64,000 nucleotides of DNA, taken from contig NZ_AAMX01000001.1 of assembly GCF_000152885.1 (NCBI RefSeq), positions 124,001-188,000 of the forward strand, given 5' to 3'. Made by a program: the position numbers and the translations under genes. Position 1 is the first letter of the stretch. Every line of letters begins with the position of its first letter. A model generated the notes under the pieces. The model was not told where the DNA came from. It worked only from the letters and a program-made list of their open reading frames with translations, and did not search any database. The stretch comes from Idiomarina baltica OS145. Lineage in GTDB: Bacteria > Pseudomonadota > Gammaproteobacteria > Enterobacterales > Alteromonadaceae. Positions 53,208-64,000 of this stretch are shown one piece after another.

Positions 53208-55526
53208 ATGGACATAAGCGAACTGTATAAGGCTGAAGCAACCACTCCTTTTAACAATTCAATATCGTACTCTACCAGAGCAGGCTTTAGAATCCCCGAG
53301 TATCAACGACAATACGATTGGTCAGAGGAAAACATCGAACGACTTTACACTGATACGTTGAATGGTCTGAATCGAGTGAAATCCTCACATGATTCTTCGA
53401 TTTATACTTTTCTTGGTTCAATAATAATGGTCGAAGAAAAATCAGTAGATCCTGATTTTGAGGGGGTTTCCCTGTCTATCGTAGATGGGCAACAACGCTT
53501 AACAACTTTGTCGCTATTTGCATGTGCTATTTACGAAAAGCTCAAAGCAGAGAAGAGTAAAGAATATAACAGAGGCCTTAGGCCTGAAGTCTCTTCATGG
53601 CTAGAAAAAGAGCTAGAATATCTACTAGGCTGTCTATATTACTGCGTTCTTGGTGTTCAACAAATTCCCCCATCATACTCTTACCCATACCCTAGAATAG
53701 TAAGAAGCGAAGATATAAGGGGAAAAAATTTACAGACCTCTGACTATAAGTCTCCAATTGCGTGCCTTTTCTTTAAATTTAGTAATTATGTAGAAAGCAG
53801 TGATACCGAATATAGTGTATCTAAAATCAAGAAATTGAAGGGTGGAAAAAAGGTTTTCGATAAATATCAGTATATACGCAAACTTTTAAACAATTTAAAT
53901 AATCCGGAGTGGTACGATGATACCGATTCGGAACTGTTTGACGTACATAATATTGAGCGGAAACAGGTACGAAGCCTTTTCTCCAAACTTGAAAGCTGCA
54001 TTCCTAACCAAAGCGACCAAAATAAAGCCCTTAGTGAGTTGACGAACTCTGCTGATCATCATGATTTTATAAGGTCCCTACTTTTTGCTCGATACTTTTG
54101 TGATTACATAGTTTTTACGAAGGTAGTAACTCAAGATGAAGGTGCAGCGTTTGATATCTTTGACGCTTTAAATACAACAGGTGAGCCACTAACCGCATTG
54201 GAGACGCTCAAGCCAAGAGTATTACAGTTTGAAAACCGTCACGGTAAATTTGCAGGATCCGAGTCTGAGCAAGCTTGGATTAAACTTGACGAACTAATAG
54301 AACAAAGATTTCTGGATACAAAAATAAAGCAGGCAGAAACCAAGGAGCTAGTAGTTTTATTCGCGCTTTATCAAGAAGGAGAGAAATTAAGTAAAGAACT
54401 TGCTGGACAACGTAATTTTTTACGAAATAGCTTTGATGCTGCATCAGATAAAGATCTCGCGTCAGCTCGAGCTTACATGGCATCCTTCGCAAAGCTTGCT
54501 GAGTTTAAACGGTATTACTTCGAAAACGACGGTATTGAAGAGCTAAGCCGCTTCCACAGGGGAGACAATTTAGACTTAGCTCAACTTCTTGCCTCTTTTC
54601 TCAAAAACATGAAGACGACTATGGCGCTTCCATTGCTTTGTAGGTATTGGAGCAGTGAATTAAAGACTGACGGAGATAAAGAGTTTTTAGACGTTTTTAA
54701 AGCCACTGTTGCTTTTCTAGTTTTAAGAAGAGCCTTTACCGGCACAACAGATGGTGTAGATGGTGTTTTTCGAGATTTAATGGCCATTAAATCAGGAAAC
54801 AATAAATCCCAAAAATTTGGCTTCTGCATTAGTAACACTTCAACCCGATCACTACCTTCGGTCAATGAACTCAAAACAATTTATACTAATCTCCTGACGA
54901 AAAAAATAAAGCACCTAAATAAAGAAAACTGGGTAAGCCATGTTTCAGAAAACCCATTATATAAACAGTCTAAACAACTCGTAAGATTCCTTACTTTTGC
55001 AGCAGCCGACTTCTCATCACCTTCGAGTGAAGCTGGTTTATTGAGTCGAGAGGGCCTGAAAAAAGACTACAGAAGTTCTTTTTTTAACTATAAGCTTTGG
55101 TCTTCAGACCTATATGCTACAGTTGAACATGTAGCGCCAGAATCAGAAAAGGAAGGTGACTGGGATGGGGCAATATACAGAAACCAAATAACGCGCCATA
55201 CTTTAGGAAACCTGACGCTTTTACCGAGTAAAGAAAACTCGAGCATTGGAAACGCGTCGTGGGAAAAGAAACGATTATTTTACTCATGCTTAACATCAGA
55301 AACTCATGAGGAACATCTAAAAAGGCTTGATCTAGCTAGGAAACAAGGAGTAAATCTATCTAAAAGTCTATTAAGACTTTTAGAATCTGGAGAGCTTTCA
55401 CCATTACTTATCCCAGTACAAGGCGTAGATAAGTGGAATAAGGAACTAATTGAAAAAAGAAGCAGAAATGTAGCTGAACTAGCGTGGGATAAGTTGTGGC
55501 CTTGGGTAAACCCCGACGACAGTTGA
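53208..55526 (+). CDS. sspE: SspE-like PT-dependent restriction protein (DUF262 + DUF1524)
   Basis: Protein of 772 residues. The N-terminal DUF262 domain has YQRQYDW (32-38) and the nucleotide-binding DGQQR motif (93-97). The C-terminal DUF1524 domain has a His-Me/HNH nuclease pattern: VEHVAPE (E640, H641), HTLGNLTLLPSKEN (664-677) and GNASWEKK. This is the domain order of SspE, which senses PT-modified host DNA, hydrolyses nucleotide and nicks phage DNA, and also of the GmrSD type IV enzymes. Location 53 bases upstream of sspA, with sspBCD beside it, favours SspE. Base use is more A+T rich than in the tricorn gene. Confidence 0.85.
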   Translation: MDISELYKAEATTPFNNSISYSTRAGFRIPEYQRQYDWSEENIERLYTDTLNGLNRVKSSHDSSIYTFLGSIIMVEEKSVDPDFEGVSLSIVDGQQRLTTLSLFACAIYEKLKAEKSKEYNRGLRPEVSSWLEKELEYLLGCLYYCVLGVQQIPPSYSYPYPRIVRSEDIRGKNLQTSDYKSPIACLFFKFSNYVESSDTEYSVSKIKKLKGGKKVFDKYQYIRKLLNNLNNPEWYDDTDSELFDVHNIERKQVRSLFSKLESCIPNQSDQNKALSELTNSADHHDFIRSLLFARYFCDYIVFTKVVTQDEGAAFDIFDALNTTGEPLTALETLKPRVLQFENRHGKFAGSESEQAWIKLDELIEQRFLDTKIKQAETKELVVLFALYQEGEKLSKELAGQRNFLRNSFDAASDKDLASARAYMASFAKLAEFKRYYFENDGIEELSRFHRGDNLDLAQLLASFLKNMKTTMALPLLCRYWSSELKTDGDKEFLDVFKATVAFLVLRRAFTGTTDGVDGVFRDLMAIKSGNNKSQKFGFCISNTSTRSLPSVNELKTIYTNLLTKKIKHLNKENWVSHVSENPLYKQSKQLVRFLTFAAADFSSPSSEAGLLSREGLKKDYRSSFFNYKLWSSDLYATVEHVAPESEKEGDWDGAIYRNQITRHTLGNLTLLPSKENSSIGNASWEKKRLFYSCLTSETHEEHLKRLDLARKQGVNLSKSLLRLLESGELSPLLIPVQGVDKWNKELIEKRSRNVAELAWDKLWPWVNPDDS

Positions 55527-55579: not shown

Positions 55580-56704
55580 TTGATTTACCTTGATAGCGTG
55601 GCCTCTTATCCATCACTGCCTGAGGTTGATGAAATTTTATACTCGACCGCAAAAAATAACTTTGCTAACCCCTCATCGTCCCATTCACTCGGCGAGCAAG
55701 GAAAGGAACTAGTAGAAGGAGCACGCGAGGCTGCGGCGGATTCGATAGGGGCGCTTTCTAGTGAAGTCGTTTTCACTAGTGGCGCAACTGAAAGTAATAA
55801 TTTGATTATAAAAGGCGTCATTTTACCTTTACTGCTAAAGGGTCAAAAGCCTCATTTAATTACGTCGATTCTCGAACATAAATGTGTACTATCAATAAGT
55901 CGGTACCTAGAGTCTTTAGGTTGTGAAGTGACCTATCTTCACCCAAATTCGGATGGGGAAATTCAGCCATCTATCGTTAAAAATGCATTCAGGGAAAACA
56001 CAGCCTTAGTCTCAATTATGCATGTGAATAATGAGTTAGGAACCATAAACCCTATCGCGGAAATTGGTGAAGTTTGCATGTCTGAGAAGATCCCCCTACA
56101 TACTGATGCCGCGCAAAGCTACCTGAAGCTTGAAACAGATGTTGATGAGCTAAACGTTGACTTTATGTCGTTATCATCCCATAAGGTGGGTGGCCCGAAG
56201 GGAGTTGGCATAGCCTACATAAGAGATTTAAAAGACCTTGATATTAGCCCAGTTGTTCATGGTGCTGGACAAGAATTCGGTTTAAGAGGCGGTACATTGC
56301 CAACCCCTTTGATCGCCGCATTCGGTGTAGCTATTCAATCATTTTCAAAATACTATACTTTAGAAAAAACTAACAAGTTAAAAAGACAGCTCCTCGAGGG
56401 GCTTGAAAAAGCGAACATAAAATACAGAATTAATGGCGGACGCAATGTTATACCGTCTTGTATCAGTCTTACGCTAAGTAGCTCTAATATCCAAGCACTC
56501 CTTAGATGCAATCACGCCTCATTAGCCTTATCTCAAGGCTCCGCATGCTCTGCTAGGTCGATCGAACCCTCTCATGTTTTAACAGCTCTTAACTTCGATC
56601 GAGAACAGGCATCTAAAACACTAAGAATTAGCTTTAGCCATAAAAATACAGGAGAAGATATAAAAATCTTATTAGACGAAATAATAAAGTTTACAGGTAA
56701 CTGA
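55580..56704 (+). CDS. sspA: Cysteine desulfurase of the PT system (SspA/DndA-like)
   Basis: Group I (NifS/IscS-like) PLP desulfurase of 374 residues. It has IYLDSVASYPSLPEV at the N terminus, FTSGATESNN for PLP phosphate, K202 in LSSHKVGGPKG and the persulfide C323 in QGSACSAR on the flexible loop. In PT systems this enzyme supplies sulfur for the DNA backbone. The start is a TTG at 55580 with GGAG eight bases upstream; the usual IYLD start leaves no other choice. It follows sspE on the same strand and meets sspD tail to tail. Confidence 0.88.
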   Translation: MIYLDSVASYPSLPEVDEILYSTAKNNFANPSSSHSLGEQGKELVEGAREAAADSIGALSSEVVFTSGATESNNLIIKGVILPLLLKGQKPHLITSILEHKCVLSISRYLESLGCEVTYLHPNSDGEIQPSIVKNAFRENTALVSIMHVNNELGTINPIAEIGEVCMSEKIPLHTDAAQSYLKLETDVDELNVDFMSLSSHKVGGPKGVGIAYIRDLKDLDISPVVHGAGQEFGLRGGTLPTPLIAAFGVAIQSFSKYYTLEKTNKLKRQLLEGLEKANIKYRINGGRNVIPSCISLTLSSSNIQALLRCNHASLALSQGSACSARSIEPSHVLTALNFDREQASKTLRISFSHKNTGEDIKILLDEIIKFTGN

Positions 56705-56829: not shown

Positions 56830-57723
56830 TTATTTATAGCATGTGATACAAGCTCCGCCGCCCTCAACATCGTCATAAATTTCATCGATATCGCTAGACT
56901 CATAAACCCCTTCGATATCACCTAAAAGCGCGTTCCGCCTTTTCTTTTTCTTAAATCGTTCAACTTTTTTCTCATGATTCTCAATAATCTGAGCACGTCT
57001 CTCTGGATCTTCCAGAGTCTCTAACGGCTCACCTTTTCCCATCCAGTAAAACCTTTCTCCAGTGACGTTATTACCCTCGCCTTTCTCGAATTCTTTTGCT
57101 TGTTCAAATAGATCGGGATGGTTCTCTTTCAAACGAATCCACTCTATCTTTTTTTGGTAGAAACAAAACGAGCAACCTGAACGGGAGCGCCAACTATAGT
57201 AATCGGGTAAGTCTAATCCATTTCGTTGGAGAATATTTTCAATATCCGACTTTACTATACCGTCCTCTCTAAACGGCATAACGGTAGTAATCGGTTTATC
57301 AATAGTTAAGAGCCCTGTTCTGCTTGGTTCATCAGCTCGAATACCAACATAATTTACAATCCGATACCCTTCTTTGATGAAGTTGTCAGCCCACTGCTCA
57401 AAAGGTTTTAATTTAAGCTGAACAGTACACCAGCGATCTCGCTGAGACGGAAGAAAATTCTGATGCTTCTTAAGCAATGATTTAAAGTCTAGCTCCCCTC
57501 GTCCATCTATGTCATTTAGTGAACGAGCATTCAGCCTGTGAATAAATCCTAAACGCTCCTCGAGCTTGTCAATGAAATCATTAGTTTCGGGAAGTTCATA
57601 CCCGGTGTCAGTAAAGAAATAGTCGATGTCTAAGTCAGGGCGAGTTTCTTTCATGTAAAGAGCCAGAGCACTGCTATCTTTTCCCCCTGAGAGCCCAAGA
57701 ACATGTTTTATTTTTTCACTCAT
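56830..57723 (-). CDS. sspD: PAPS-reductase-like ATP pyrophosphatase (SspD/DndC-like)
   Basis: Protein of 297 residues from the adenine-nucleotide alpha-hydrolase superfamily. The PP-loop is LSGGKDSS (12-17 SGGKDS). Cysteines in RWCTVQLK and SGCSFC fit the Fe-S cluster seen in DndC. A further CxxC (GGACITCYK) is the extreme C terminus. In the Ssp system this protein activates the DNA phosphate for sulfur insertion. I choose the ATG at 57723 because GGAGGG lies five bases before it and it overlaps the sspC stop by eight bases; an earlier in-frame ATG lies inside sspC without a ribosome site. Confidence 0.9.
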   Translation of the reverse strand: MSEKIKHVLGLSGGKDSSALALYMKETRPDLDIDYFFTDTGYELPETNDFIDKLEERLGFIHRLNARSLNDIDGRGELDFKSLLKKHQNFLPSQRDRWCTVQLKLKPFEQWADNFIKEGYRIVNYVGIRADEPSRTGLLTIDKPITTVMPFREDGIVKSDIENILQRNGLDLPDYYSWRSRSGCSFCFYQKKIEWIRLKENHPDLFEQAKEFEKGEGNNVTGERFYWMGKGEPLETLEDPERRAQIIENHEKKVERFKKKKRRNALLGDIEGVYESSDIDEIYDDVEGGGACITCYK

Positions 57724-60700
57724 TAGTTCCCTCCAAAGCTTCGACAGGATGCATAAGCTCACTAAGTAACTTAACTAAAACCTCTCTTTTTAGATCGTTA
57801 GAAAGTGGTGTAAGTTCCTTGCTCAAAGATTTCAGAAGCCCCTCTATTTCAGGAGCGTTTTCTGTAGTCTTAGATATGTGACCCTCAAGCTCAACCAAAG
57901 CACCAGTTTCATCAGTTGTAATTAGTCCAACAGGTTTCGCTGAGGTTTTCGACGTCAGTTTTGTGAAGGTCTCCTCTCGCCTAAACTGACGACACAAGTT
58001 ATAAATTTCATGCAACCCGTTATTGATATGCTTATCCGTCCAACTCCGCTCAGCCGCTCCGAGTGCTGTTGATACAACCCACTCAAATGAGTTTTTGTTG
58101 TTTATATATCCAGTCAAACGACTTGCGAATTCCTTTATAGACGGCCTATGGGCGGCCTTTGCGACCCGCTCACTTCTTTTTGCGAGCGCCTGGTCAAAGC
58201 TCCCACTTAGCTCTTGCCTGATAATCTGTTTAAATGCATCAACCAGAAGTGTGTGCTGTGATGTTAATTCGTCTATTGCTGACTTTAAGCGTACAGACAA
58301 TTCATCAATAGATTCTTCAGATCCCTGGCCCTTATTGGGAATGTTGAAAATTTCAGGAATATCTTCAAGCACAAGCTTGTATGGGTCATTTGCTCTCAGC
58401 ACACTATTTCGGAGGGCCTTAGCCTCTTTAGATAGTTCGACGCTCTTGTCTTCACAGTCAAAAAGATGGCCTGAGGTTTTCTTCACCCAAGGTGGCAAAG
58501 TATGGATTAGCTTCACAATATGCTTTGCTAGTTCTAGAAGGTTCGAGTCTTCCTTTGATTGCAACTCCGCAGCTGTTGCAATGCTGCGAACCACGTTGGT
58601 TTGGATCGAATCAATCTCAAAATACCTTACTGCAACCTCGTGAGAATGCTTATGTAACTTCTCAACAATAACTTCATCGAGCTGAGGTATGAATATAAAG
58701 CTTTGAGTTGAATCCTTGTCGTAAAAAGCTACCTTTCCCTCTAGAGATTTTAGTAGAGCTAAGGCATAAATACGGCAAAGGCCAGCTGTCAAACCGAAAG
58801 GCGGACGCATCCACATTTCATAAAGCTCTGACAAAGTAACCATTTTGTCTGCCGATTTAATAAAGTTAAAGCCACTCTCCCATAGTCTATAAGCATCTTC
58901 GAATTCTGCTTTTAATTCAGGACTCCAGTCAGATACAAACGCATACCCACACGGAGTCTTCTGGTGCCAACCTTTGCTTTTCAATACGGATAGATAAATA
59001 CCTTTTTCCGGCGGGAAAGTGTTCTCATCAAAACCAAGATCAGACTCATGCTCGCTATTCAGCATTGCGAGCATCAACTTGTTCGTAGCTGAATTGGCGT
59101 TACCGGATGGCTTTGAACGATTTACCAGTTCGTTAATAACTGTAGGAGAGCGGTTGTACATTGAGTCAGCAGCTAGAGAGGCCAACTGTGACAACGCAGC
59201 AATGCCTTTTGACTCGCCCTTATAGAACCATTTCGCACTGGAAAACAACGCTTCAAGCTCGTTGGAAAGACGATGACGAGCATCAGATAAGCGATTGTTT
59301 AATTCCTTTTTTGCTACGTGATCGTGCGCTAACCTATCTTCTCGTTTAAATACGTTATTAATAGCAATTGACTCAATCGCTGATGCTTTTAGCTTACTTG
59401 TACTCTTCGGAGAACCTAATAGTAAACGAGGGTATTCCTTAGATAACTTTTTCAATTCATTGTGGTTTAGTGACTCGCCGATTAGAACAAAGGTACTAAA
59501 CGGCTCTCCTGCCTTCGGTTGCTCTTTCGAATCAACCTGGGAAATCGCTTCTGCGTACTCCACAAAGGTAGTCTCTGTCCACCTCATGGCACCAGTTCTG
59601 TGGTAGTGTGAGGATGCTAGTATGTGAGTTGCAGAGTTGCATTCATTCGCCCAATTTACCCCGTCCTTAATCGACTCAACTTCGCTAGCAATAAGCTCAT
59701 TTACATCAACGTCACTTCCTTGGAAAACAAATAGAGCATTATGTTTTTTTCTAAAAATAAGAACCGACGATTTTTCTAGTTCATCTATTACGCCTTCAAC
59801 CTCTGGCCTTTCAAAGCCGTAACCTTCGTAATATTTAACTAACAGCTCGCGAGTTGCATATAAGTGGAAAGATTGACCAAAAACTGTTAGTAAGGCAACC
59901 AGAGAAGTGAGTTTACGGTACAGCTCTCCATCTTTAGCTCCCGCTCTATAAATTGCGTCGTTTGCTTCGAGCCAAGCCTTTCCATCTGGTGAGCTATTAA
60001 TGAGATGTCCTAAATTAGTCTCTAAATAGTCCCACAGAAGATCCGGCCCATAGAGGTGTAATGAATCCGGCGACCATTCATTTTCCAGAAACCAGCGGAA
60101 GCCATACCTTTCACTTGAAGCTAAAAAACCAAAAATACTTCGCTCATTTTGTGAAAATCGCCGCCTAGAAATTGGCCCCAATAGTAGGCTGACTAGTGGG
60201 TCGATGGGTAAGGCGTTGAGCAACGGAGTAGTTGCAGATATTGCGGGCGGTAACTCAGTCGAAATCGAGTCAACTAACCCTGTGTATTTATTCAGTAGCC
60301 GTTTTTCTACCTCAGGCTCGACCCTGATAGAGTCTGCTATCAGAATAAGAGACTCATCCACGGTTGGGTTATAGCTCAAATCGCGATAGCGACCTTGAAC
60401 TTTTGCCCATTCTTGCTGAGTAAGTGCAGCTTTGCCTTTTGCATACTGATTAAATGCTTGGTGTAGAAAACCAATGATGATGACTGGCTTTTCGGACTTT
60501 TGTGCCAAGTCAGCGAGTTCTTGAAAGAAATACAAATCTCCATCATGACTCGACTGATAATCCAATGCCTTTCCGAGTTCATCGAGTAGAATGACCACTC
60601 CATCTAAGTTCTTCAAGGCTTCTTGAATCGAATTATTAATCGCCTTTAAACAATCGGTATCAGACATAGGAGCGTTGAGACGACTAATCTCACAGTCCAA

Positions 60701-61102
60701 CTGATTGCAAACTGATTCTGCTATAGAGTGTGCAGGGTTATTTAAACCGCACACATGTTTTATGACGCCCCAGCCATTTTTGTAAGGAAACGCTCTTTCA
60801 ATAGTTTCATCTAATGAGTCTGCATTTTTAAATTTATTTAGAGTAGATTGTCGGTGGCTGCTATTACGCCCTAACGCACCCGATATCAGAGCCGCAAGAG
60901 TTGACTTACCCGAACCGTAAGGCCCCGTAACAGTGAATGCTCTTTGTGAACTTCCGTGAATCTCGCGCGCTACAGTAGATATTGTTGATTTCAACGTCCC
61001 ATGAATGATAACTGCGTTTAAAAACTCATCGAAATTATCAGCAACCGCATCGATTCGAACCGAACTCTTGTACTTATCATTAATATAGACACTAGTAGAC
61101 AT
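57716..61102 (-). CDS. sspC: Large P-loop ATPase of the PT system (SspC-like)
   Basis: Protein of 1128 residues. Walker A is GPYGSGKST (60-68) and Walker B is VVILLDELGKAL (D174, E175), in an N-terminal AAA-type ATPase domain that also resembles BREX BrxC-type proteins. The remaining 900 residues are mostly helical with no named domain that I recognise. In known Ssp loci SspC is the ATPase partner of SspB and SspD. The ATG at 61102 overlaps the end of sspB by 11 bases; an in-frame ATG 21 bases earlier has no ribosome site. The overlaps indicate translational coupling of sspB, sspC and sspD. Confidence 0.87.
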   Translation of the reverse strand: MSTSVYINDKYKSSVRIDAVADNFDEFLNAVIIHGTLKSTISTVAREIHGSSQRAFTVTGPYGSGKSTLAALISGALGRNSSHRQSTLNKFKNADSLDETIERAFPYKNGWGVIKHVCGLNNPAHSIAESVCNQLDCEISRLNAPMSDTDCLKAINNSIQEALKNLDGVVILLDELGKALDYQSSHDGDLYFFQELADLAQKSEKPVIIIGFLHQAFNQYAKGKAALTQQEWAKVQGRYRDLSYNPTVDESLILIADSIRVEPEVEKRLLNKYTGLVDSISTELPPAISATTPLLNALPIDPLVSLLLGPISRRRFSQNERSIFGFLASSERYGFRWFLENEWSPDSLHLYGPDLLWDYLETNLGHLINSSPDGKAWLEANDAIYRAGAKDGELYRKLTSLVALLTVFGQSFHLYATRELLVKYYEGYGFERPEVEGVIDELEKSSVLIFRKKHNALFVFQGSDVDVNELIASEVESIKDGVNWANECNSATHILASSHYHRTGAMRWTETTFVEYAEAISQVDSKEQPKAGEPFSTFVLIGESLNHNELKKLSKEYPRLLLGSPKSTSKLKASAIESIAINNVFKREDRLAHDHVAKKELNNRLSDARHRLSNELEALFSSAKWFYKGESKGIAALSQLASLAADSMYNRSPTVINELVNRSKPSGNANSATNKLMLAMLNSEHESDLGFDENTFPPEKGIYLSVLKSKGWHQKTPCGYAFVSDWSPELKAEFEDAYRLWESGFNFIKSADKMVTLSELYEMWMRPPFGLTAGLCRIYALALLKSLEGKVAFYDKDSTQSFIFIPQLDEVIVEKLHKHSHEVAVRYFEIDSIQTNVVRSIATAAELQSKEDSNLLELAKHIVKLIHTLPPWVKKTSGHLFDCEDKSVELSKEAKALRNSVLRANDPYKLVLEDIPEIFNIPNKGQGSEESIDELSVRLKSAIDELTSQHTLLVDAFKQIIRQELSGSFDQALAKRSERVAKAAHRPSIKEFASRLTGYINNKNSFEWVVSTALGAAERSWTDKHINNGLHEIYNLCRQFRREETFTKLTSKTSAKPVGLITTDETGALVELEGHISKTTENAPEIEGLLKSLSKELTPLSNDLKREVLVKLLSELMHPVEALEGTNE

Positions 61103-62036
61103 AGCCGTCACCGTAAAAATCATCTAAAAATTGGGCAGGGTACTTCTTCAGAAACGGGTCAACCATAATTTGTCTCAGCCCAAGAGAATCGGTCCAAGAT
61201 ACTTTTCCGTTTGAAATGGAAGCTAGATCATCTAGCTTATTCGATAACCCTTGCTCAGATAGGCGAAAAATTCTACCAGGGGAACACGGTTTAGAGAGCA
61301 AGGAGTCAAAATCAATGGTGTTAACACCTGACTCAGCCGTCTCATTACCAACAAAACGACAAAGAGCATAGGCGAAAATCTCTGTAGGCAAAGATGGTCG
61401 CTCTGTGAACTCGCTAACGCAAAACCCGCCAGAAACCTCCGTAATGAGCCCCAGCTCAGAAAGTGGTGATGCAAAATGGTCTTCATCAACGGCTTTTGAT
61501 TGCCGTGTTTTTTTACTATAGGTATGCAAAAAGCAATCTACGTCTTTCTTCACAGTAGATTTCTTTCCTGCTTCCATATTTGTCAAACTAATAGTGCTCG
61601 ACATAATTTCGTCGACCAACTTAGGTTTTTCAAAGCTTTGAAAATTACAATAGTTGAAAAAGTAGCGATATGAAGTTAGTAGATCCGTAGAAGAATTCAA
61701 GCGGTAGTGAAGCAACCAAATAGAACCGGTTTTTTCGAGATAAGGATCAGCATTACCATAACTAGCATCTTCCTTAAAAAGAAAGCTACCTAAATCCGTC
61801 ACTGCTAACTGACTTCGTGAATTAACCAAAGAGGACGAAATGACATCAGTCATCTCAGCCCAATAGCGAATTGCGTTCACCATATTTTTACCGACGCCTA
61901 ATGAAACAATGGCATCGCGCACAAAATCATCCGATGACTTTGCATTTTTACTATTATTTATCAGTAGGTTAACAGCTTTATATAGCCACCCATACCGTAG
62001 AGGAAACGTATCATGACCTGAAAATTTCGGTTTCAT
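61092..62036 (-). CDS. sspB: DUF4007 protein, SspB-like DNA nickase
   Basis: Protein of 314 residues that opens with KFSGHDTFPLRYGWLYKAV, the DUF4007 signature. It continues with a helical region including LGVGKNMVNAIRYWAEMTDVI, a winged-helix-like part where the LAVTDLGSFLF segment sits. SspB from described Ssp loci is the nickase that lets sulfur enter one strand. ATG 62036 is chosen because DUF4007 proteins begin at this point; 21 upstream codons in frame overlap the promoter and the inverted repeat. First gene of sspBCD. Confidence 0.9.
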   Translation of the reverse strand: MKPKFSGHDTFPLRYGWLYKAVNLLINNSKNAKSSDDFVRDAIVSLGVGKNMVNAIRYWAEMTDVISSSLVNSRSQLAVTDLGSFLFKEDASYGNADPYLEKTGSIWLLHYRLNSSTDLLTSYRYFFNYCNFQSFEKPKLVDEIMSSTISLTNMEAGKKSTVKKDVDCFLHTYSKKTRQSKAVDEDHFASPLSELGLITEVSGGFCVSEFTERPSLPTEIFAYALCRFVGNETAESGVNTIDFDSLLSKPCSPGRIFRLSEQGLSNKLDDLASISNGKVSWTDSLGLRQIMVDPFLKKYPAQFLDDFYGDGYVY

Positions 62037-62240: not shown

Positions 62241-62678
62241 TTAGGCTCTTACCGAATTATCTATAACATCTAAAAAGTTCCAAAGAGGCTTTTGGTCTGT
62301 GTCACTTAATATTTGTATTAACCGAGGCACTCCTGCATGAGCTCTTTGACATGCGAAATCCCAAACTTTTCGCGGGTTCGCCAGTCCATCGAGAGACTCG
62401 CTTTCAGCCAAATAGACGGCCTGTATATACGTAATTCTTTCTGAATTTGACGAGAGAATATGGGCTTGTGTCGCGTTGTAGGTTTTTGAAGGTTTCACCA
62501 AGTCTAGACCTTCAACTGTTGCAAGAACAAACGCAAAAAACCAAAAGTCGACTTGACGTTCAAACGGAGCTATTTCGCTCGAGACGTTTTTGCCCCCCGT
62601 ACTGCAATAGCTTCTAATTCTCTCGGCATAAGCCTCTGGTAGTTCGACATTGTAACTTGCAAACGGATTACTACTCAT
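62241..62678 (-). CDS. Small helical protein, possibly Dnd-system-associated
   Basis: Protein of 145 residues. I do not recognise it securely. Its layout (an ERIRSYC segment, APFERQVDFWFFAFVLATVEGLDLV, then ITYIQAVYLAESESLDGLANPRKVWDFACQRAHAGVPRLIQIL) resembles the small proteins annotated as dnd system-associated protein 4, in which a hydrophobic helix after a polar linker is followed by a helix ending in a gly/leu-rich segment. ATG 62678 has GGAG seven bases upstream and lies one base after the stop of the SMC-like ATPase gene, so the two are co-translated. It is likely a partner of that ATPase. Confidence 0.7.
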   Translation of the reverse strand: MSSNPFASYNVELPEAYAERIRSYCSTGGKNVSSEIAPFERQVDFWFFAFVLATVEGLDLVKPSKTYNATQAHILSSNSERITYIQAVYLAESESLDGLANPRKVWDFACQRAHAGVPRLIQILSDTDQKPLWNFLDVIDNSVRA

Positions 62679-62679
62679 T

Positions 62680-64000
62680 TTAAATCTCCAATAATTTTCG
62701 TTCACATATATCACAGAACTCTCGGTGGTTGCATTCGCACCTCATTACGCTAATGGAGTCTTCATGCGGCTCATTTGCCAACATAGTTGGGTAGTGCGCG
62801 GGGTTTGTTAATGTAAAAACTTTGCCTGCATATCGATCTATTAACTCCTCAACCCCTTTTATTTCATCATGTGTAAGAAATAAAATAGGCTGAGAACCTT
62901 CAATAACAATATTAGACAATACAGATTGCTTTACATATCCGGACATCATTCCTAAAGGGGTGTCAATTATATTAGGCGCCTCAACCTGGCTTACTTTTGT
63001 CAGAGCTAAAATAAACGATAACGTAATAGCTCTTCTAGAGGCTCCGTTCAAGTCTTGGTCTGGATTGAGAAGATGGTCATTCTTTCCATAAACAACGATA
63101 TCAAACTCTTCAGTAAGCTCAGCACGATTGATGAGGGCTCGTTCCTCTGAAACAGCACTTCCGATCATGCCAAGAAATATGCGGTTCATTTCAGAGCTTA
63201 CTTTCTTCAGTTCATCTTTTTTCAAACGCTCAACTATTAATTGAAATACCTCACGAACCTCTTTACTTAAATCCCAGTTAAGAGCTGAATTATTTGTCTT
63301 TCCAAGCTTACTTCGCAACTTATTTAGGGAGTGCTCGGCATCTGCTCGTCGTTGTTGGACATCCTCTATTTTAGTTGCTCTGCTTGAGGCATTTGACAAA
63401 GCAATTCGCAATTCGCTCTCAATCTTTTCTTTGTGCCGTGTTAAGGCTTCTATCTGAGAATCTTCAAGCGTTTGTATCTCAGCCTCAACATCTCTTAGTT
63501 CTGACTCGGTATCCGAAATAGTAATTGAGCAACGGTTAAGTTCATCGAAAAGGTTTGAGTAATTCTCAAGCAACTGTTCGCCGGAATTCTCCGTTTCTAT
63601 ACTTCTAACGGAATAGTAAAGTGACGTAGCAGCCTCTTGAATAGCATCAGATTCTCGACTTTCATCGATTGAACGCTTAATTTCATCCCGTCTCGAAATA
63701 CCCTTTGACGTAACACCATCTAAATCACTTCCACAAAAACAAGTCGTCCGTTCTAAAAGCTCTTCAAGTATCGGTATATTAACCTTTGGGAGCTGCTTCG
63801 ACTTGTTTAATCTATTTAACTTATCTTGTGCCTTTTCTATCTGCCCTTTTAGAAGAGAGCGAGCAGCTAATTCGCCATACCCTAATTGCGATAAGCGCTT
63901 TAATGCCTGCTTCTCTGCCTTTTTCTGTTCTTCTATCCTACGCTCTGCTTTACTTTTCCTTTCAATCAGTACTGATTTATTTCCCAAGCGTATCAAGTCT
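62680..64000 (-). CDS. DndD/SMC-like ATPase, C-terminal part (runs off the right edge)
   Basis: At least 439 residues; the frame is open at the window edge and the Walker A end is missing. A long coiled coil (about 1-210 of the visible part) is broken by TCFCGSDLDG, a hook-like cysteine pair. The ATPase head follows: DLNGASRRAITLSFILAL (signature region), APNIIDTPLGMMSG (Walker B of the DndD type, where IDTPLG is typical) and ILFLTHDE (H-loop). It ends with a zinc-ribbon-like RCECNHREFCDICERK. DndD works in PT modification of double-stranded DNA. Finding such a protein beside an Ssp system, which already has its own ATPase, suggests a second module. Confidence 0.75.
   Translation of the reverse strand, partial: DLIRLGNKSVLIERKSKAERRIEEQKKAEKQALKRLSQLGYGELAARSLLKGQIEKAQDKLNRLNKSKQLPKVNIPILEELLERTTCFCGSDLDGVTSKGISRRDEIKRSIDESRESDAIQEAATSLYYSVRSIETENSGEQLLENYSNLFDELNRCSITISDTESELRDVEAEIQTLEDSQIEALTRHKEKIESELRIALSNASSRATKIEDVQQRRADAEHSLNKLRSKLGKTNNSALNWDLSKEVREVFQLIVERLKKDELKKVSSEMNRIFLGMIGSAVSEERALINRAELTEEFDIVVYGKNDHLLNPDQDLNGASRRAITLSFILALTKVSQVEAPNIIDTPLGMMSGYVKQSVLSNIVIEGSQPILFLTHDEIKGVEELIDRYAGKVFTLTNPAHYPTMLANEPHEDSISVMRCECNHREFCDICERKLLEI

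Follow-up and report, generated by a model that had tools for sequence, protein, structure and literature searches.

The window analyzed here, a 64,000-nucleotide stretch of Idiomarina baltica OS145 that lies on a 281-kb contig of a 2.77-Mb genome, ends at its right edge with a DndD-like ATPase gene and a small companion gene next to genes for an Ssp phosphorothioate (PT) system. A first-pass annotation read this pair as a possible undescribed PT-linked module. We asked what the pair is and whether it belongs with the Ssp genes beside it.

The pbeABCD cassette and the Ssp core

The open reading frame list gives a 439-aa minus-strand frame that leaves the right edge, with its stop end at 62680, and a minus-strand frame at 62241-62714 that encodes exactly 145 residues when read from the ATG at 62678. 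Using a same-contig stretch that reaches past the right edge (L002; window coordinate = L002 coordinate + 50999), we found that the pair closes a complete pbeABCD cassette: it makes up the second half of the four genes, which follow the canonical order and lie upstream of sspBCD. On the minus strand, going downstream, the genes run pbeA-pbeB-pbeC-pbeD, a 204-bp gap and sspB-sspC-sspD; sspE and sspA lie on the plus strand:

pbeA, L002:14019-16160, minus strand: 713 aa, PLD nuclease/SF2 helicase, beyond the window's right edge
pbeB, L002:13804-14022, minus strand: 72 aa, overlaps pbeA at its own start and pbeC at its own end
pbeC, 62680-64806 (L002:11681-13807), minus strand: 708 aa; the window part, 62680..64000, is C-terminal
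pbeD, 62241..62678, minus strand: 145 aa, predicted DndE cognate
sspB (DUF4007), 61092..62036, minus strand: 204 bp downstream of pbeD, start taken at ATG
sspC ATPase, 57716..61123, minus strand: 1135 aa
sspD PAPS-reductase-like, 56830..57762, minus strand: 310 aa
sspA cysteine desulfurase, 55580..56704, plus strand: 374 aa
sspE (GmrSD_N + GmrSD_C), 53208..55526, plus strand: 772 aa, second effector on the same modification core

The edge pair is PbeC plus PbeD of the described PbeABCD system (PMC6459918, as far as available to us), so its reading as an undescribed module is not borne out. An unknown two-gene module was rejected as a candidate because pbeA and pbeB are present on the contig past the edge, the former being the helicase or nuclease gene that the first-pass annotation had suggested seeking upstream in the same row. 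The length it gave for the small protein, 145 aa, was correct; co-translation with pbeC, which it had also claimed, is plausible only, with a single base between the pbeC stop and the pbeD ATG. Given the 204-bp separation, a transcript shared by pbeD and sspB is a candidate only.

Upstream of pbeA lie 1.8 kb without a clear gene, ahead of a plus-strand gene row (L002:17932-19844 and L003 up to 3025) in which two genes have weak tyrosine-recombinase matches; this row is possibly the mobility end of an island. A tRNA search of L002 found none.

In a PADLOC scan, the 708-aa ATPase matches PbeC (171.7 bits, E 7e-51) better than DndD (136.2 bits), which upholds its first reading as a DndD/SMC-type ATPase at superfamily level. 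The protein carries a Walker A motif (AANETGKTT, beyond the edge), the IDTPLG and LTHDE motifs, a C-terminal cysteine cluster (CECNHREFCDIC) and a CFCG hook at residues 356-359, mid coiled coil. Such a CxC hook sets this ATPase clade apart from DndD and SMC, according to the available text of PMC10853773. Canonical DndD (TIGR03185) was rejected for pbeC, at 124.5 bits against a curated cut-off of 245.85 and with no DndC partner. The CxCx5CxxCER tail formed by the cysteines occurs in 3 of 77 PbeCs (window, L120 and L134) and additionally in L142; within the set examined it is private to the window's PbeC lineage, and every locus that has it also has sspBCD. Three Bacteroidales-type Ssp-linked ATPases (L034:12450-15202, L037:7752-10504 and L143:12440-15187) have no CxC hook and may form a separate DndD-like branch.

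PbeA scores 620.8 bits in PADLOC and contains the Pfam domains PLDc_2, ResIII/DEAD and Helicase_C. Its H139, K141, N159, Walker A and D404/E405/H407 are invariant across 20 aligned PbeAs (window + 19). The 72-aa protein, scanned against PADLOC alone, matched no model there and is a putative PbeB by position and size only. All four pbe frames are intact, and HxK/N, Walker A, DExH, CxC and DTPLG are retained.

The window's PbeD has no convincing match among PADLOC, Pfam and NCBIfam models. However, when it is combined with two lineage-mates, the resulting profile matches one built from 22 further PbeDs (probability 95.9%), all of which match NCBIfam dnd_assoc_4. The AlphaFold2 model (mean pLDDT 79.9 with 22 relatives, 53.9 for PbeD alone) consists of two strand-helix-helix (RHH-like) units. 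DndE tops its comparison with solved structures, at Z 9.5 (7x4e), 8.9 and 8.5, the next entry having 2.7. Foldseek ranked DndE first with E-values >1, and the PbeD profile A5 found no match among the sequences of solved structures. By its model, PbeD is a predicted DndE cognate with two RHH units.

PADLOC and Pfam place SspA, B, C, D and E all in the window (PADLOC bits: SspB 305, SspC 1686, SspD 376, SspA 413, SspE 1291), so the Ssp system noted alongside the pair is real and complete. The PAPS-reductase gene is SspD at 376 bits, against 28 for DndC, and the PT modification genes beside Pbe are SspA-D, not Dnd. SspFGH was rejected as an identity for the cassette: pbeA, pbeC, pbeD and the five ssp genes contain no FtsK-type Pfam domain, and the best PADLOC matches are Pbe. 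DndF, DndG and DndH are absent among the PADLOC matches listed (best 25 per protein, from a library whose DndFGH models are unconfirmed), and on sequence grounds a DndFGH cassette seems unlikely. These results agree with the first-pass annotation, which could assign the pair to neither system.

Recurrence and exchange of Pbe and Ssp modules

The pair recurs next to sspBCD elsewhere, a point that the first-pass annotation had proposed checking. We count 14 distinct loci with pbe and sspBCD (the window, seven from the genome scan, two from random genomes, two plasmid and two IMG/VR loci), with both Pseudomonadota and Bacteroidota represented. In the scan of genome contigs with a PbeA alignment, from which the best 80 of 86 confirmed loci were used, iterated profiles detected SspB, SspC and SspD in the examined flanks of 7 of 80 PbeA loci (L023, L033, L034, L037, L052, L061 and L079). 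A PbeA ORF of 600 aa or more is present in 71 of the genome-scan loci; 7 of these have Ssp, 26 have Dnd, one has SspE only and 37 have neither, so Pbe has no general tie to Ssp. At least five of the 37 (L018, L036, L042, L057 and L084) contain a second DndD-like ATPase near the flank end, so a Dnd partner may sit just outside the flank. The label 'other' (43 of 84 rows) covers contigs whose short length could hide any partner, and the Pbe association counts are therefore lower bounds; some genomes, such as L057 and L110, are present in two collections. As to the refuting condition named by the first-pass annotation, a pair that occurs mostly without PT genes, 37/71 loci are without DndC and SspB/SspE in the flanks examined, at least five of them with a possible Dnd partner beyond. 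Within the window's own lineage, the neighbourhood could be read in four loci (window, L120, L134 and L142), and each has sspBCD.

SspB was found in 10/393 (order) and 10/397 (phylum) random non-window genomes, one genome being common to both. Of 18 SspB loci from these random genomes, two (L108 and L120) have a PbeA-PbeC pair beside sspBCD, the sspD of L108 being truncated at the end of the retrieved sequence; G590, with a split SspB at contig ends, was left out of this set. The PbeA search of 398 genomes matched 51, mostly by the helicase part alone, and only matches reaching both halves were counted as PbeA (G835, G974, G903, G1054, G797 and G978, plus the window). A near-identity DNA search of plasmids gave no match. 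All eight genes of sspABCD-pbeABCD share a strand on plasmid CP099618 (L134), where the annotated sspD and pbeA overlap, and on Rhizobium indigoferae plasmid CP140639 pbeA is convergent with sspD and the order is pbeC-pbeD-pbeA. From the viral scans, 1/1 and 2/19 loci were examined further, the other 17 matching only from residue 269 on; IMG/VR contigs L142 and L143 carry pbe and sspBCD, and L144 is a 100% copy. In 11 of 12 loci, some sspBCD gene lies no more than about 410 bp from a pbe gene, and in L134 and L037 the two overlap. SspE directly adjoins PbeA in L108:9263-13771 (9 bp apart) and L030:461-5053 (24 bp), so the combination of SspE and Pbe is not unique to the window.

The PbeA tree includes 72 of 84 rows, 11 near relatives having been thinned and L087 left out to make the 12 others; it was built by a 'quick' method without bootstrap, has one long end branch and drew many composition warnings. 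Ssp linkage changes five times on this tree (L030, SspE only, not counted) against a shuffled mean of 11.3, and 0 of 500 shuffles were as low. One 18-row branch (support 86) contains all 12 Ssp-linked PbeAs together with three Dnd-linked, one SspE-linked and two unlabelled ones. Ssp-linked PbeA is clustered on the tree. The window's PbeA falls in one group (support 99) with L120, L134 and L122, the last cut short by its contig; no other row of the tree exceeds 37% identity to it.

The window and Idiomarina tyrosinivorans have 5,246 bp in common at 97.7% DNA identity, from the sspD stop to 39 bp before the sspB ATG. Between them, SspB/C/D are 98/98/100% identical, and PbeA/C 27/19%; the I. tyrosinivorans Pbe cassette is in divergent orientation, and no SspE was found in its 22-kb locus. 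For L033 and L079, PbeA/C are 85/87% identical, and SspB/C/D 29/24/45%. Judging from these identities, pbe cassettes and ssp cores are exchanged between loci in both directions. PurK, named by eye, is 70% identical at the amino acid level between the window and I. tyrosinivorans, and two of 19 genomes in the genus, one being the window's own, have the window's sspBCD, which together argue that the sspBCD core moved recently. PurK is the single core-gene yardstick here since the other comparisons gave no usable match: neither the 13.6-kb neighbouring region at the DNA level nor a 2.1-kb gene (ppk, by eye) as DNA or protein had a match in G1101, the genome read as I. tyrosinivorans from agreeing contig coordinates, and an ABC-F-like protein reached at most 33%. 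Across 12 loci, a Mantel test of Ssp against Pbe distances gave rho 0.48-0.57, with 1.1-1.7% of 1000 permutations as high; this moderately positive correlation indicates that exchange falls short of complete shuffling.

We also met other gene sets beside Ssp genes. An SF2 helicase (~550 aa), a GHKL ATPase (~590-630 aa) and a PLD nuclease (~305 aa) lie beside sspBCD in 3 of the 18 random SspB loci, or 4 including an altered form:

L114:10774-15114 and L133:15316-19668: helicase-GHKL-PLD trio, profile-supported
L129:15175-19623: helicase-GHKL-PLD trio, GHKL and PLD named by eye
L130:15880-19865: reordered trio, GHKL and PLD by eye, a GmrSD_N protein replacing the helicase

This trio is not Pbe and is possibly another undescribed Ssp partner. 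Two gut contigs filed as 'Bacteriophage sp.' (L138:1551-13732 and L139:1584-13819) carry a pbeABCD-type cassette, preceded by genes for a PAPS reductase (BrxP in L138), a DUF4007/SspB protein, an SspC/BrxC-type ATPase and, by eye, a cysteine desulfurase; of the two, the PADLOC scan covered L138. By gene content, a BREX type 4-like modification set thus seems to be a further partner of Pbe. In L112:14435-17829, three genes follow sspD, encoding proteins of 198, 626 and 297 aa; the 626-aa one belongs to the DndB family (PF14072), which we had not expected beside Ssp.

Proposed working and rival readings

The complete pbeABCD cassette reads towards sspBCD, and we consider it likely that one Ssp core serves two effectors, PbeABCD and SspE, and that PT licenses PbeABCD. 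In the available text on the archaeal system, virus carrying PT evades Pbe, and Pbe in cells lacking PT neither harms nor protects them (PMC6459918); SspE needs host PT (PMC8092258, available text). By analogy with both, the Ssp phosphorothioate would be expected to license PbeABCD. SspA and SspD would mobilise sulphur, and SspB and SspC would place a single-strand phosphorothioate (5'-CpsCA-3' is reported for other SspBCD). Family and fold suggest that a PbeC2-PbeD2 complex, a CxC-hook ABC ATPase with a double-RHH DNA reader, scans DNA; host PT may license this complex while PT-bearing DNA would be spared, as homology with archaeal Dnd-linked Pbe suggests. On unmodified phage DNA the complex would engage PbeA, the HKD nuclease-SF2 helicase fusion, and replication would stop. 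PbeB (72 aa) might be a regulator or trigger, and PbeABCD would act in parallel with SspE.

We further think it probable that SspABCD-PbeABCD represents a type of Ssp-based defence in its own right that has yet to be described, in which Pbe lineages have adapted to single-strand PT, cassettes are swapped between sspBCD cores both ways, the core can be shared with SspE, and the zinc-type C-terminal cluster of PbeC in the window lineage is an extra docking or sensing element.

Alternatively, two independent defence systems may sit side by side in an island, PbeABCD working without Ssp, perhaps alongside some other modification or with none at all, and their adjacency reflecting island clustering. 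Defence islands cluster by themselves, which counts against reading Pbe-Ssp adjacency as partnership. This reading would account for the 37/71 PbeA loci without DndC and SspB/SspE in the examined flanks, for the weak tyrosine-recombinase matches upstream of pbeA and for the 320 of 553 cases of PbeAC without dndCD in the available text of PMC6459918. It does not explain why ssp and pbe lie within about 410 bp in 11/12 loci (the twelfth, L108, has sspE 9 bp from pbeA), why Ssp-linked PbeAs group on the tree or why the pairing is kept through exchange in both directions; SspB is also rare at random, in only 10/393 and 10/397 non-window genomes, and we regard independence as unlikely.

PbeC and PbeD might instead form a second DNA-targeting head that recruits SspA/SspD to new sites, with PbeA as an auxiliary. 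The available text of PMC10853773 argues that modification is centred on an ABC ATPase-DndE pair that does the scanning, and PbeD has a predicted DndE fold. Nevertheless, the locus has intact SspB and SspC, and L142, which was found by a PbeC query, carries the nuclease-helicase PbeA too; the other loci with pbe and ssp were found through PbeA, or SspB and then PbeA, so their PbeA is no evidence. Moreover, all four archaeal pbe genes contribute to protection, pbeA being partially required, and PT is attributed there to dndCDEA (PMC6459918, available text), leaving a second head very improbable. A decayed or inactive passenger is hardly credible as a reading of the cassette. Its island-borne look and a PbeA with no more than 37% identity to any other tree row point that way, but the four frames are intact, catalytic and hook motifs are kept and pbeA/B/C overlap.

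Our preferred reading, one Ssp core with PbeABCD and SspE as effectors, opens the question of what Pbe reads: any phosphorothioate, or just the single-strand mark made by Ssp. The swaps found in nature (one sspBCD with two very different Pbe cassettes, one Pbe with two very different sspBCD cores) are ready constructs for asking whether cassettes are interchangeable or mark-matched.

Comparison with known systems

For the comparisons below we draw on the available text of each cited paper. The archaeal pbe cassette encodes a PLD-helicase, a 66-aa protein, an AAA ATPase and a 152-aa protein (PMC6459918). Compared with Haloterrigena jeotgali A29 (DndCDEA-PbeABCD), the window has the same four proteins in the same order, small proteins of 72/145 aa against 66/152 aa, and the PbeA domains (PLD-like, ResIII and Helicase_C) in common. 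The partner differs, being Ssp (single-strand PT) in the window and Dnd (double-strand PT) in H. jeotgali A29 (PMC6459918). The window is also bacterial, has sspE as well and an extra PbeC C-terminal cysteine cluster, and its PbeD is too divergent for the models tried.

PbeABCD has been reinterpreted as a CxC ABC-ATPase/DndE system in PMC10853773, a paper that disagrees with PMC6459918 over whether PbeA cuts or acts solely by blocking replication. Like the window, the CxC systems combine a CxC hook, a DndE fold, an HKD-SF2 helicase and a small protein; their described partners are DndD-centred PT genes or cytosine methylases (PMC10853773, whose consulted passages on Ssp make no link to CxC systems), whereas the window's is Ssp.

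SspABCD-SspFGH resembles the window as an extra, SspE-compatible effector cassette on sspBCD (PMC8092258). SspF, SspG and SspH have no significant homology to annotated genes apart from a Walker A and an FtsK-like SspH end (PMC8092258), while the window encodes a PLD-helicase, a CxC ATPase and a DndE-like protein. The lineage-mate on Sphingomonadaceae OTU29MARTA1 plasmid CP099618 (L134) has PbeA/PbeC 35/34% identical to the window's and the same CxCx5CxxCER tail; unlike in the window, the order is reversed (ssp first, then pbe), and no sspE was found in 26 kb.

Among 2,678 sspBCD loci, sspFGH was counted in 7.3% and sspE in 7.4% (BLAST with one query set each; PMC8092258). By these counts most sspBCD loci looked orphan; for some of them, Pbe provides the partner. 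Strains with dnd or ssp genes were lumped together in counts of pbeA-D (PMC7464106), which may thus include unnamed Ssp-Pbe strains. In the literature searched (including PMC6459918, PMC8092258, PMC10853773, PMC7464106, PMC12839542 and PMC11931770, main text as available), we found no description of Pbe on an Ssp locus, and PbeABCD appears there alongside Dnd modification genes or methylases (PMC6459918, PMC10853773). The first-pass idea of an accessory module sharing sspABCD therefore survives: within this literature, the Pbe and Ssp parts are already known, and their pairing is what we did not find described.
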